DNA from: Myxococcus stipitatus
GTDB taxonomy: Bacteria > Myxococcota > Myxococcia > Myxococcales > Myxococcaceae
DNA length: 64,000 nucleotides
Assembly: GCF_037414475.1 (NCBI RefSeq)
Contig: NZ_CP147913.1
Coordinates: forward strand, 6,322,001 to 6,386,000
Direction of reading: 5' to 3'
A program made the position numbers and the translations under genes. The notes below the pieces were generated by a model. It searched no databases. It was not told the origin of the DNA and was given only the letters and a program-made list of their open reading frames with translations. This document shows, piece by piece, positions 45,203 through 49,968 of the stretch (its first letter is position 1; every line of letters begins with the position of its first letter).

Positions 45203-47518
45203 CTACTTCTGGATGAGGCCGCCGCTCACGACCAGGCCGTACTTCGCGTCGATGGTGGGAGTGCTCAGGTCGGCGTCCTGGACGATTTCATCGCCGAGCA
45301 CCGTCACCGTCCACGCGCCCGCCTGGGGGTTGGCGAGGAAGACGTTCTCCACGGTGTCCACCTTGTTGGAGACGCCGCCGGACGTGGAGACGTTGCTCGC
45401 CGTCAGGCCGTTGTTGCCCCAGTACACGACGCCGGAGGGCGAGGTGACGCGCAGCGAGAGGTCATTGATGCGCGCCTGGGCGGCGCCCACCGTGCCCGCG
45501 GGGTCCGTGTAGACCATCGTGACGTTGAGCTCCGTCTCGCCCGAGGCCACGTTGACCGTGTACGACTTGCTGCCCAGCGGCAGGAGCGTGTCCGTCTCGT
45601 CGATGATGTTCGTCACGGCGGCGCGGTCGTAGAGCCGCTTGACGTCCGCGGTGCCCCAGCCCTGGCGCGCGCGCGTCAGGTCGCCGTTGGAGCCGCCCGC
45701 GAGCCAGTTGTAGCGGTAGGCCATGTTGATCATCAGCGCCTTGGCGGTGGCCATCTGCGGGCGGCTGGTGAAGACATCCGCCTTGCCGCCGTGGCCCGCC
45801 CACACGCCCCGGTGCCACATCTCGAACAAGAGCCCGAAGTGGCCCGCCGTCTGCGGGGTTGCGGCGCTGGTGCCACCGAACTCGGTGTACGACGTGTCGC
45901 TCGCGTTACTGGCGGCGCGAATGTTGTCGTAGAAGTAGGACAGGTCCGGCTTGAGGCGTCCGTCGGCCGCGGGGCCGATGCTCGCGCTGTTGGCCCAGGC
46001 GTCATCGGCGCGGTTGGCGGTGCTGCGGTGGTTGAAGCCACCCACGGACACGATGTTCTTGGCCCACGCCTGCGGCCGCGAGTTGCGCGTTCCTGAGTTG
46101 CTCTGGGACTGGGTGCTGAGGATGGGGGCCTTGTGGAGGTAGTCATCCACCTCGGCGGAGATGGTGGTGTACGTCGTGCCCAGCGTGCTGCCCACGCTCG
46201 AGGTCTGGAACACGGCGCGATAGGGGCCCGCCGGGTCCGTCAGCTCGCGGTTGATGTCGTAGCGGGACTTGGCGCCGCCGAACTGGCTGGACTGGCTGTA
46301 GAGGAAGAAGATGCCCTGGCCCTTGGGGAGCATGCCTCGGGCCTCGGGGTTCACTCCGCGAGCGAAGTTGATGCTGTAGCAGCTCGTCCCGTGCGCGCTG
46401 CCCGCGGTGGAGGTGCTGTGGATGATGGGTGCCACGGCCCATTCCTGGTGCGTCGTGCGCAGCTCGGTGTCGAAGATTTCGCCGCGCACGCCTTCACCCG
46501 TCCAGCCGCGCAGCTGCTCGAGGTAGTTGGCTCCGCCCACCTCGCGAACGATGTTCATGTCCACTTCACCCGGGCCACCCCAGCGGTCGATGAACTGCAC
46601 CGCGTTGGAGCGCACCAACTGCTCGAGCTGCGGCTGGGTGAGCGTGGCCTCCACGCGCAACCCACCGGACTCGATGAGGTCCACGGTGCCGCCCAGCTTG
46701 CGCACCAGGTCGGCGACCTCGCCCTGGCGCACGGCGCCTCGCTCACCCACCATGATGGAGTAGCGCTGCGCCTCCAACCGCGCGGAGCGCCCCGTGAGGG
46801 CATCGCGCAGGAAACCCTCCACGCGGTACTCCGGATGGTACGGGCCCACCCAACGCACGAAGGGCAGCTCCGCGACGCGCTTCTTCGTGTCCGCGTTCAT
46901 CTCCACCAGGAACGTGTGGTCCGTGAGGAAGCGCAGCACCTTGCCTCCCTCGCGCTCCAAGGCCTCGCGCAGCTCCGGCAACGGCGTCGCCTGCAGTTGC
47001 ACCAGCGACAGGGTATTGCCCGGGTCCGCCGTCAACAGGCCCGCCACCAACGGCGCCGTGTCACGCAGCGGATCGAACTGAACGTGCCCCAGCCGTACCT
47101 GGTACGTCGTGGCCTGGGCCCGGCCCACCAGCTCCGTGCCTCCCCGGCTGTACGCGAAGAAGTCCTGACGCTGCCCGGCCGCGTCGACCTCCTGCCAGAC
47201 ATGCAGTTGGAGCGCGGTGCTGGGGACCGCGAGCGTCTTCAGCCCCTGCACCTGGTTGTCCGTTCGGTGGAACACCAGGCCCGTGCCCGTGACGAGCGAA
47301 CGCAGCTTCTCCTGCGTGCCCGTCAGCGACCCAGGATTCCGCGGCGTGGGGGTGTTGGTGTTGTCGACGACACGGGCCGCCGGTATCGCGGCGCGTTCGA
47401 CTCCTGCTGGCGCCTTGGACGCCGCGAGCGCCGGAATCGGCGCGAGAAGACCACAGCCCAGGGTCATCACAGTGAGGCGACGCCAGCGTCCCGCATACGA
47501 CGAGAATGCAGTCTTCAT
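45203..47518 (-). CDS. Subtilisin-like S8 serine protease, exported
   Basis: A 771-residue secreted protease. The signal peptide is about residues 1-33 (L-G-C-G-L-L-A-P-I-P-A-L-A-A). Residues 70-310 resemble a propeptide with an inhibitor-like beta region. The catalytic Asp is in E-I-F-D-T-E near 348, His in H-G-T-S near 376, and Ser in G-G-T-S-A-A-T-P near 549; spacing is normal for S8. A ~100-residue C-terminal P-domain/jelly-roll follows. AGGAGAG precedes the ATG. Probably used in predation or nutrient acquisition; this is inferred. Confidence 0.9.
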   Translation of the reverse strand: MKTAFSSYAGRWRRLTVMTLGCGLLAPIPALAASKAPAGVERAAIPAARVVDNTNTPTPRNPGSLTGTQEKLRSLVTGTGLVFHRTDNQVQGLKTLAVPSTALQLHVWQEVDAAGQRQDFFAYSRGGTELVGRAQATTYQVRLGHVQFDPLRDTAPLVAGLLTADPGNTLSLVQLQATPLPELREALEREGGKVLRFLTDHTFLVEMNADTKKRVAELPFVRWVGPYHPEYRVEGFLRDALTGRSARLEAQRYSIMVGERGAVRQGEVADLVRKLGGTVDLIESGGLRVEATLTQPQLEQLVRSNAVQFIDRWGGPGEVDMNIVREVGGANYLEQLRGWTGEGVRGEIFDTELRTTHQEWAVAPIIHSTSTAGSAHGTSCYSINFARGVNPEARGMLPKGQGIFFLYSQSSQFGGAKSRYDINRELTDPAGPYRAVFQTSSVGSTLGTTYTTISAEVDDYLHKAPILSTQSQSNSGTRNSRPQAWAKNIVSVGGFNHRSTANRADDAWANSASIGPAADGRLKPDLSYFYDNIRAASNASDTSYTEFGGTSAATPQTAGHFGLLFEMWHRGVWAGHGGKADVFTSRPQMATAKALMINMAYRYNWLAGGSNGDLTRARQGWGTADVKRLYDRAAVTNIIDETDTLLPLGSKSYTVNVASGETELNVTMVYTDPAGTVGAAQARINDLSLRVTSPSGVVYWGNNGLTASNVSTSGGVSNKVDTVENVFLANPQAGAWTVTVLGDEIVQDADLSTPTIDAKYGLVVSGGLIQK

Positions 47519-47847
47519 GAGGTGTCTCTCCTGCTGCTCGGGTTGCGTTTCATGCTGCGCCCGCCACTCCCGACTTCAGTCCGGGCGGCGGATTACGACA
47601 GTCGTTGAATTGCTGGAAATCGAGAATTAATTGTTAATCTGGATTACCGCGTCGAATCAACACATTCGCCATTCCAGCCATGCGCGGTGTGCAATGCCTC
47701 ACATCTGGAGGAGATTCAGGTAGACGCGGTGCGCGAGCTGGAACGCCGCGCAAGGTCTTCCGTGCGTGAGCGTGCGCGCGCCGGGGAGGAGGCTTCTTCG
47801 CGCAGCGTCAGCCGTGTTCTGGACGCCGCGTCCGGAGGGGCCTCGTC
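47519..47847. promoter_or_regulatory. Divergent promoter region with an AT-rich island
   Basis: 329 bp between the protease start and the PNKP-like kinase start. An AT-rich island at about 47605-47650 (core GAATTAATTGTTAATCTGG) contrasts with the GC-rich surroundings and is a plausible promoter core for the protease, possibly also for the divergent RNA-repair pair. No -35/-10 pair is assigned with confidence. Confidence 0.5.
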
Positions 47848-48315
47848 ATGGAACTCATCCTCTTCATCGGGTTGCAGGCCTCGGGCAAGAGCCGCTTCTT
47901 CGAGCGGCGCTTCGCCTCGACACACGTCCTGGTGAGCAAGGACCTGTGGCCTAACGCGCGGCGCAAGGAGGCGCGTCAGCAGCGATGGGTGGCCGACGCG
48001 CTGAGCCAGGGGAAGTCGGTGGTGGTGGACAACACCCACCCGACGTTGGCGCAGCGCGCGCCGCTCATCGCGCTGGGGCATGCGCAGGGCGCGTCTGTCA
48101 TTGGCTTCTACTTCTCGTCGCGCCTGGAGGACTGCCTGGCGCGGAACGCGAAGCGGCAGGGGCGCGCGCGAGTGCCGGACGTGGCGTTGTTCGCGACGGC
48201 GAAGCTGCTGCGGCGGCCCAGCCGTGAGGAGGGATTTGATGCGTTGTACCGCGTCACCCTCGGCGGCGACGGGGACTTCGTCGTCGAGGACTGGAAGGAG
48301 GAGCGAGATGATTGA
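47848..48315 (+). CDS. PNKP-like polynucleotide 5'-kinase (P-loop ATPase)
   Basis: A 155-residue P-loop kinase. Walker A is G-L-Q-A-S-G-K-S at 8-15. The acceptor-side motif V-V-V-D-N-T-H-P lies at 58-65, and the region to residue 131 follows the kinase domain of eukaryotic PNKP closely as recalled: D-N-T-x-P, an R at 70 (A-Q-R), a hydrophobic strand G-F-Y-F-S, R-N then K-R, then V-P-D-V-A-L, and a final R-P-S-R-E-E-G-F-D. This is the family of T4 Pnk/PNKP kinases that add phosphate to 5'-OH nucleic acid ends. No phosphatase or ligase domain is fused. GGAGG precedes the ATG. Its last 8 nt overlap the Thg1-like gene. Confidence 0.8.
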   Translation: MELILFIGLQASGKSRFFERRFASTHVLVSKDLWPNARRKEARQQRWVADALSQGKSVVVDNTHPTLAQRAPLIALGHAQGASVIGFYFSSRLEDCLARNAKRQGRARVPDVALFATAKLLRRPSREEGFDALYRVTLGGDGDFVVEDWKEERDD

Positions 48316-49078
48316 CGCCGATGAGCTGGCCCGGCGGATGAGGCAGGGGGAGCTGTTTCACAGCCTGCGCCTGTTGCCCGGGGCGTGGGCGGTGCTGCGG
48401 GTGGATGGGCGAGGCTTCTCTCGCTTCACGCAGGAGCGCTTCGAGAAGCCCTTCGACCCGCTCTTCCACAGGATGATGGTCCGCACGGCGAGCACGCTGC
48501 TGGAGGAGTTCCAGGGCATCTACGCGTATACGCAGAGCGACGAAATCTCCGTGCTCTTCCGGCCGGACTGGTCGCTGTTCGACCGCGAGGTGGAGAAGCT
48601 GGTGTCGCTGTCCGCCAGCGTCGCGAGCGCCACCTTCACGCACGCGGTGGGGGTGCCCGCCGTGTTCGACGGGCGCGTGTGGATGGGGGTGGATGAGCGC
48701 TCGGTGCTCGACTACTTCGCGTGGCGTCAGGCGGACGGCACCCGGTGTTCGCTTCAAGGGTGGTGCTACTGGACGCTGCGCAAGGAGGGGCTGAGCGCGG
48801 CGCAGGCCACGCGCGAACTGGACGGGCGCTCCGCGTCCTTCAAGAACGAGCTGCTCTTCCAGCGCGGCATCAACTTCAACGAGGTGCCGCTCTGGCAGCG
48901 ACGGGGCTCCGCCATCCGGTGGGAGCACTACGTGAAGGAAGGCGTGGACCCTCGAGACGGCTCCCGTCATCGGACGACGCGGCGCCGGCTCGGGGTGGAT
49001 TCGGAGCTGCCCATGAAGGAGGCCTACGAGCGCTACCTGCGTGAGGTGCTCGTGTCCTCCACGCCGGAGCCTCGCTAG
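48308..49078 (+). CDS. Thg1-like protein (TLP), 3'-5' RNA polymerase family
   Basis: A 256-residue member of the tRNA-His guanylyltransferase superfamily, which adds nucleotides to RNA 5' ends in the 3'-5' direction. Metal-binding residues are D33 and G34 in R-V-D-G-R-G-F and D78 in Y-T-Q-S-D-E-I. The segment W-R-Q-A-D is at 139-143, but the H-I-N-N-L-Y-N motif of true Thg1 is replaced by T-R-C-S-L-Q-G, as in bacterial TLPs that repair 5'-truncated tRNAs. K179/N180 and G-I-N-F-N at 187-191 are conserved. AAGGAGG lies 6 nt before the ATG, inside the kinase gene. The frame is open upstream, but this start is well marked. Confidence 0.88.
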   Translation: MIDADELARRMRQGELFHSLRLLPGAWAVLRVDGRGFSRFTQERFEKPFDPLFHRMMVRTASTLLEEFQGIYAYTQSDEISVLFRPDWSLFDREVEKLVSLSASVASATFTHAVGVPAVFDGRVWMGVDERSVLDYFAWRQADGTRCSLQGWCYWTLRKEGLSAAQATRELDGRSASFKNELLFQRGINFNEVPLWQRRGSAIRWEHYVKEGVDPRDGSRHRTTRRRLGVDSELPMKEAYERYLREVLVSSTPEPR

Positions 49079-49929
49079 CCGGTGGGGGCATCCAACAGCA
49101 TCACCCGCCACAGCCGGGGCTTGTCGTACTTGGGAGGAATCATTCCCAGCGGCCAGCCCTCGGCGGTGACTTCCGCGTACTGGTAGCTGCGCCCGCCGTG
49201 GCGCAGCCGGGTGCCGGAGCCCGGGAGGCCCACGCCCACCGCCGCGTGTGCCAGCGGGTCCGAGTAGAGCAGCACCGCGTCGACGCCCACCTGCCGCAGC
49301 AGCATCACCGCCAGCAGGGCCTTGGAGTCGCAGTCGCCACGGTTTCGCGCCGGCACCAGCGCGGGAGGGACGATGCCGAAGGGCTCGTCCTGGGGCAGCT
49401 CGTACTGGATGCGCTGCACGAAGCCGAGGATGAGCTGCGTGGCCTGCGCGGAGTCCAGGTTGCGCTCGCGGACGGAGGTGACGAAGCGCTCGCCCAGTGC
49501 CTTCACTGGCCCCTCGTTGCTGCGCATCAGCTCCTCGTAGATGCAGCGCATGTCGGCGGAGCAACCGCGGGGCGGCTGATAGGTGAAGCGCTCTCCGCCG
49601 AGCGAGCGGTAGCGCAGCCTTCGTCCAAGGACCTTGAGCTGGTCCTCCAGCCACGCATCCAGCGTGTCGCCCAGCCCGTAGGTCAGCCGATGGTTGGAAG
49701 GAGTGACGCTCGCCGTGCTCCAGTCATACGTGCGCGCGCGGGAGCGTGGCGTGTCCGCGGGGATGAGCACGGCGCCCAGCTCCACCGAGTCGGGGCCCAA
49801 GGGCTGCTCATGCGGCGCGGAGCCGGCGTTCGTGTCCGCGAGGCGGCCCGTGATTCCCAGACGGAGCCCGCCCATCAGCGCGCCGGCCAGGACCAGCAGC
49901 GCGAGGAGGAGCTTGAGGGCCGTCTTCAT
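49075..49929 (-). CDS. Membrane-anchored transglutaminase-like protein
   Basis: A 284-residue protein with an N-terminal membrane helix (residues 5-25) and a transglutaminase-like core: C200 in N-R-G-D-C-D-S-K, H228 in L-A-H-A-A-V-G-V, and a downstream Y-A-E-V-T-A-E in place of the catalytic Asp strand. The start at 49929 sits directly before the anchor; another ATG at 49947 adds six residues. It lies 39 nt downstream of the DUF350 gene, and its end overlaps the end of the convergent TLP gene by 4 nt. Such proteins often act as peptidases in the periplasm. Confidence 0.78.
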   Translation of the reverse strand: MKTALKLLLALLVLAGALMGGLRLGITGRLADTNAGSAPHEQPLGPDSVELGAVLIPADTPRSRARTYDWSTASVTPSNHRLTYGLGDTLDAWLEDQLKVLGRRLRYRSLGGERFTYQPPRGCSADMRCIYEELMRSNEGPVKALGERFVTSVRERNLDSAQATQLILGFVQRIQYELPQDEPFGIVPPALVPARNRGDCDSKALLAVMLLRQVGVDAVLLYSDPLAHAAVGVGLPGSGTRLRHGGRSYQYAEVTAEGWPLGMIPPKYDKPRLWRVMLLDAPTG

Positions 49930-49968
49930 GCGGGAATCCGAGGACATGATGGTGGCGGCGACAGCCCC

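Follow-up and report, generated by a model that had tools for sequence, protein, structure and literature searches.

The window, a 64,000-nucleotide stretch of the 10.3-Mb genome of Myxococcus stipitatus, contains on its forward strand two overlapping genes, the first encoding a predicted polynucleotide kinase and the second a Thg1-like protein (TLP) of the 3'-5' RNA polymerase family (Table 1). The original prediction had read the two open reading frames as overlapping by 8 nt and had placed an AAGGAGG for the second gene inside the first, and both are borne out by the sequence: the overlap contains the TLP start together with the kinase stop, and the likely ribosome-binding site is separated from the TLP ATG (48308) by 6 nt. 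Upstream of the kinase lies a divergent subtilase gene (45203-47518) and downstream of the TLP a convergent transglutaminase-like gene (49075-49947), so that the kinase and the TLP form a separate two-gene unit.

We searched this operon for sigma-54 and sigma-70 promoters and for a terminator and found none, the sole candidate element being the AT-rich palindrome ATTAATTGTTAAT between the subtilase and kinase genes, which may serve the divergent subtilase gene instead of the kinase. No tRNA or Rfam RNA was identified within the window, and neither the kinase nor the TLP matched the PADLOC defence-system models.

Table 1. Features of the kinase-TLP locus, with positions numbered within the window
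Feature	Position	Strand	Evidence
Stand-alone PNKP-like 5'-OH polynucleotide kinase (predicted), 155 aa	47848..48315	+	PF13671, NCBIfam, PDB profile, AF2 model
Thg1-like protein (TLP), 3'-5' RNA polymerase family, 256 aa	48308..49078	+	PF04446, PF14413, 5axk
Kinase/TLP overlap, 8 nt, ATGATTGA; TLP start and kinase stop	48308..48315	+	Sequence
AAGGAGG, likely TLP ribosome-binding site, within the kinase gene	48295..48301	+	Sequence
AT-rich palindrome ATTAATTGTTAAT, subtilase-kinase intergenic; possible operator or promoter element (candidate)	47626..47638	.	Conserved in close relatives
Kinase P-loop G8-S15, GLQASGKS (GxxxxGK[ST])	47869..47892	+	G8, G13, K14 invariant, n=45
Kinase D32, aligns with mammalian PNKP Asp396	47941..47943	+	Invariant, n=45; profile and structure alignment
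Kinase D61-N62-T63	48028..48036	+	Invariant, n=45
Kinase lid R99-N-x-x-R103, putative counterpart of T4 Pnk R122/R126	48142..48156	+	R99, N100, R103 invariant, n=45
TLP D33, first catalytic carboxylate, DGR motif	48404..48406	+	Invariant in TLP alignment; aligned to human Thg1
TLP D78-E79, second and third catalytic carboxylates, SDE motif	48539..48544	+	Invariant in TLP alignment; aligned to human Thg1

The First Gene Encodes a Probable Stand-Alone Polynucleotide Kinase

The kinase matches Pfam PF13671 (AAA_33) with 54.6 bits (cut-off 27), and its top NCBIfam models are PNK-3'Pase and bacterial Pnkp (bacter_Pnkp); the former is matched by all 45 of the 45 aligned relatives (E 0.01). A profile of the kinase compared with the PDB places mammalian PNKP at the top (4e-22) and Clostridium thermocellum Pnkp (CthPnkp) at 1e-14, with tRNA(Sec) kinase (1.5e-11) and T4 Pnk (1e-6) lower. 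The AlphaFold (AF2) model has a mean pLDDT of 94.8 and, as a predicted structure, ranks PNKP and CthPnkp top in both Foldseek and VIA-align, the VIA-align Z scores being 19.1 for PNKP, 18.9 for CthPnkp, 15.9 for tRNA(Sec) kinase, and 14.6 for T4 Pnk. Small-molecule and sugar kinases, including PFKFB and gluconate kinase, score ~14, and two solved kinases for which we found no paper (9d8a and 9drz) rank near PNKP.

Besides the invariant residues listed in Table 1, P110, P124, and D131 are the same in all 45 sequences. D32 aligns with D396, the catalytic Asp of mammalian PNKP, and the D-N-T-x-P pattern of the original prediction is exact, reading DNTHP at residues 61-65 and DNTNP in most relatives. 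T4 Pnk binds its substrate through R38 and has lid arginines at R122 and R126. The correspondence of the lid to the latter two is inferred from the offset in the PDB profile alignment; at the R38 site, three residues beyond the catalytic Asp, the window kinase has Pro and its relatives R, K, P, or G, with another Arg nearby. The fold (Z ~19), P-loop, catalytic Asp, and PNK profile are shared with the kinase domains of mammalian PNKP and CthPnkp; unlike these proteins, the window kinase consists of the 155-residue kinase domain only, with neither a 3'-phosphatase nor a ligase domain. The original assignment to a PNKP/T4 Pnk-type kinase lacking a phosphatase thus agrees with the motifs, the PNK profiles, and the predicted structure, and the protein is a stand-alone PNK domain, predicted to phosphorylate 5'-OH RNA. 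We also considered N-terminal extensions of the kinase in Actinomadura as fusions and rejected them, as they resemble open frames in GC-rich DNA.

The Second Gene Encodes a Thg1-Family Protein

Assignment of the second gene to the Thg1 family stands, as the protein contains the Thg1 palm and Thg1C domains (PF04446, 108.6 bits; PF14413, 58.8 bits) and keeps all three catalytic carboxylates. Among solved structures it matches the archaeal TLP 5axk (3e-33) and human Thg1 (7e-27), and the eukaryotic HINNLYN motif is absent, with RCSLQGW in the place of human HINNLYN. Both domains, the DGR and SDE carboxylates, and the lack of HINNLYN are shared with the Myxococcus xanthus TLP and BtTLP.

In vitro, tRNA-His receives a single G from the M. 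xanthus TLP, templated 3'-5' addition is common to all characterised TLPs including that of M. xanthus, and repair of 5'-truncated tRNA has been reported for every bacterial or archaeal homolog investigated for that activity (PMC6471195). By analogy with its M. xanthus homologue, the window TLP would carry out templated 3'-5' addition.

The Pair Is Conserved and Co-Diverges

We scanned the GTDB genomes once with a TLP alignment and took the best 80 TLP loci, which come from Myxococcota, Cyanobacteriota, Actinomycetota, Planctomycetota, Chloroflexota, Acidobacteriota, Bacillota, Bacteroidota, Pseudomonadota, and other phyla. In 57 of these 80 related loci, from at least nine phyla, the TLP is immediately preceded by a kinase gene on the same strand, and since the loci are the best matches to one TLP alignment, these counts describe one TLP clade and not all TLPs. 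The gap between the two genes is between -17 and +8 nt in 52 of the 57 adjacent pairs. In the TLP tree, 91 proteins fall within the clade of the window TLP (63 kinase-linked) and 12 outside it (1 kinase-linked); the latter are mostly plasmid, phage, and Bacillus-type TLPs, and the sampled TLPs of these types have no adjacent kinase. The window TLP belongs to a kinase-linked clade, apart from these sampled proteins.

Among 195 Myxococcota genomes, the TLP is found in 58 and the kinase in 73, with both in 53, the TLP only in 5, the kinase only in 20, and neither in 117 (Fisher 4e-25 for co-presence, uncorrected for shared ancestry), and the two genes are adjacent in 48 of the 58 genomes with a TLP. 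Kinase and TLP distances correlate across 60 pairs with r 0.84, the best of 2000 permutations reaching 0.26, and, once a pair whose start was mis-assigned is excluded, kinase dN/dS within the genus spans ~0.07-0.43 and TLP dN/dS ~0.04-0.26. Purifying selection acts on both genes, and they co-diverge. The kinase-TLP arrangement that the original prediction noted at this locus is a conserved one in this TLP clade, so that the prediction survives the refuting condition of non-conservation in related genomes that it had set itself, and its recurrence in 57 of 80 loci together with the dN/dS values indicates that the gene order is not due to chance.

Each gene is also found without the other. Comparison with 26 genomes of the same genus shows that the TLP is decayed or missing in 4 of 27 (G012, G016, G021, and G024), three of which retain an intact kinase. 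TLP deletions lie alongside an intact kinase in G012 (L183) and G021 (L185), and in G016 (L184) a deletion has left the beginning of the kinase gene fused to the end of the TLP gene. Three Myxococcus kinases without an intact TLP have dN/dS of 0.15-0.27, still indicative of purifying selection. The kinase is frameshifted in G017 (L187), and the adjoining TLP is intact. Across the Myxococcota, the 20 genomes that match the kinase but have no intact TLP include other families. Of the 23 genomes whose TLP has no kinase next to it, 21 gave no clear kinase match elsewhere, one of which (Streptomyces sp. SID3343) has only a weak 65-bit match, and many of these 21 are drafts or MAGs, so that absence of the kinase from them is not proven. 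As kinase and TLP survive independently, they are better described as frequent partners than as an inseparable machine, and relatives that have lost just one gene of the pair provide natural built-in comparisons.

Other RNA-Repair Genes Adjoin Related TLPs

Some TLPs without a kinase have other neighbours. The nucleotidyltransferase RlaP, described as a restorer of lost nucleotides beside RNA ligases (PMC7824862), flanks the TLP on either side in Phormidium and overlaps it in Thiodictyon; an HD-domain protein is encoded upstream of it in three Plantactinospora; and an Rnl5-type RNA ligase lies downstream of it in Butyrivibrio. Ligases of this type occur in 2 of the 80 surveyed loci (L129 and L176) and are absent from the window operon; in Limnoglobus, an Rnl5-type ligase, the kinase, and the TLP form an operon of overlapping genes. 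In Deinococcus taeanensis the kinase-TLP pair is followed downstream by Hen1 and two RlaP genes. The HD-TLP and RlaP-TLP pairings may be unreported so far.

These neighbourhoods lead us to suggest, tentatively, that the TLP clade could be the core of a modular RNA-repair system in which 5' kinase, RlaP, HD protein, and Rnl5-type ligase are interchangeable, the 3'-5' polymerase rebuilding the 5' strand and the others healing and sealing the rest.

Two further neighbourhoods were observed at TLPs without a kinase. A PIN_3-domain gene, possibly a ribonuclease next to a repair enzyme, adjoins and diverges from a TLP belonging to a different clade in two Myxococcota genomes (L207:2933-3391 in G113 and L208:2857-3402 in G159), and the TLP of an Anaerolineales MAG has downstream of it the gene for an ATPase that carries an Mrr-type nuclease domain (L113:5893-7560).

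A Probable Pathway for RNA 5'-End Repair

The enzyme families, their catalytic residues, the order and overlap of the genes, co-divergence, and purifying selection point to a two-gene operon that probably heals RNA 5' ends in sequence. The damage would be RNA cleavage leaving 5'-OH ends; the kinase would act on RNA, most likely tRNA, phosphorylating the 5'-OH with an NTP, after which the TLP would activate the resulting 5'-monophosphate and, with the facing acceptor-stem strand as template, restore the lost 5' nucleotides by 3'-5' addition. We infer this joint pathway, and yet rank it first among the readings, favoured as it is by the RNA-acting partners at other TLP loci (RlaP, Rnl5-type ligase, and Hen1); counting against it are the solo kinases, the solo TLPs, the TLPs outside the clade without a kinase, and Pro at the T4 R38 site.

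The solo kinases suggest a different reading, in which the kinase is a general RNA or DNA end-healing enzyme that works alone or for several pathways, the pairing with the TLP being a frequent convenience and not obligate. They belong to the same subfamily in the 20 Myxococcota genomes without an intact TLP, they remain under purifying selection after TLP loss, and DNA-acting PNKP is among the closest solved relatives; however, the usual position of the kinase just upstream of and overlapping the TLP, in TLP-bearing genomes of many phyla, and its co-divergence with the TLP make this reading rather unlikely. That the kinase substrate is instead a small molecule (nucleoside, sugar, or antibiotic) and the gene order incidental is the least probable explanation of all: only the general P-loop kinase fold, as seen in the Z of ~14 for PFKFB and gluconate kinase, argues for it, whereas polynucleotide kinases rank first by both sequence profile and structure, the PNK-3'Pase model is matched by every aligned member, and the RNA-repair context is conserved.

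Two other explanations differ in what the TLP would do. The TLP could only activate the 5'-phosphates made by the kinase, giving App-RNA or ppp-RNA for sealing by a ligase with nothing rebuilt, an alternative raised in PMC2904730 and in keeping with the RNA ligases that adjoin the Butyrivibrio TLP and form part of the Limnoglobus operon, but improbable given the rarity of such ligases among the surveyed loci, their absence from the window operon, and the polymerase activity of the TLPs characterised to date (PMC6471195). Alternatively, the pair could maintain G-1 of tRNA-His, restoring it after loss of the 5' end, in line with the G addition by the M. xanthus TLP in vitro (PMC6471195). The tRNA-His gene of the source genome, however, already encodes G-1, opposite C73, which rules out a tRNA-His without G-1 and makes a TLP role at this tRNA redundant, and the pair is missing or decayed in some relatives, so that G-1 upkeep is very improbable.

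Relation to Known Systems

Both the pairing and the sequential repair mechanism that we favour have been known as a prediction since 2010, when Anantharaman, Iyer and Aravind reported a PNK-family kinase as the most persistent associate of bacterial Thg1, proposed that it supplies the 5'-phosphate substrate of Thg1, listed M. xanthus among the species, and noted a MACRO-domain gene or an RNA ligase in subsets of these operons (PMC2904730). The gene families, the association, and the proposed mechanism are the same here and nothing essential differs; adjacency across lineages is also found, as is the RNA-ligase subset (Rnl5-type, L129 and L176). Added here are the counting of the association, the tracing of its exceptions, and the RlaP and HD-domain neighbours. 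Pnkp/Rnl/Hen1 RNA repair likewise relies on a PNK domain for 5'-OH end healing, and the D. taeanensis pair has Hen1 and RlaP close by; unlike that kinase-phosphatase-ligase fusion system, the window operon has no ligase, phosphatase, or Hen1. We found no experimental test of the kinase-TLP pair in the open-access literature, and its presence as an operon in a culturable, genetically tractable Myxococcus offers a direct route to testing RNA 5'-end repair.

tRNA-Like Elements and tRNA Arrays in the Genus

Elsewhere in the source genome we observed a tRNA-like element (G000:C1:4001637-4001756; about 8640-8760 in L288) that is conserved in 17 Myxococcus genomes, the source included (L271-L286 for the others). 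Its body is near-constant and its anticodon triplet varies by species (CCC, CCT, GCC, CTT, TGT, GAT, TTC, CGA, TTG, and CTG); in the source genome, its acceptor strands are unpaired and it receives no ARAGORN call. A Band_7/SPFH gene follows the L288 element at a distance of ~0.4 kb, and tRNA-like RNA has reportedly been described with Band-7 proteins by Burroughs and Aravind in 2016. The source genome also carries compact arrays of 6 and 9 tRNA genes (G000:C1:2421517-2421997 and 2621923-2622833), both with divergent sequences and resembling the tRNA arrays of phages and mobile elements.
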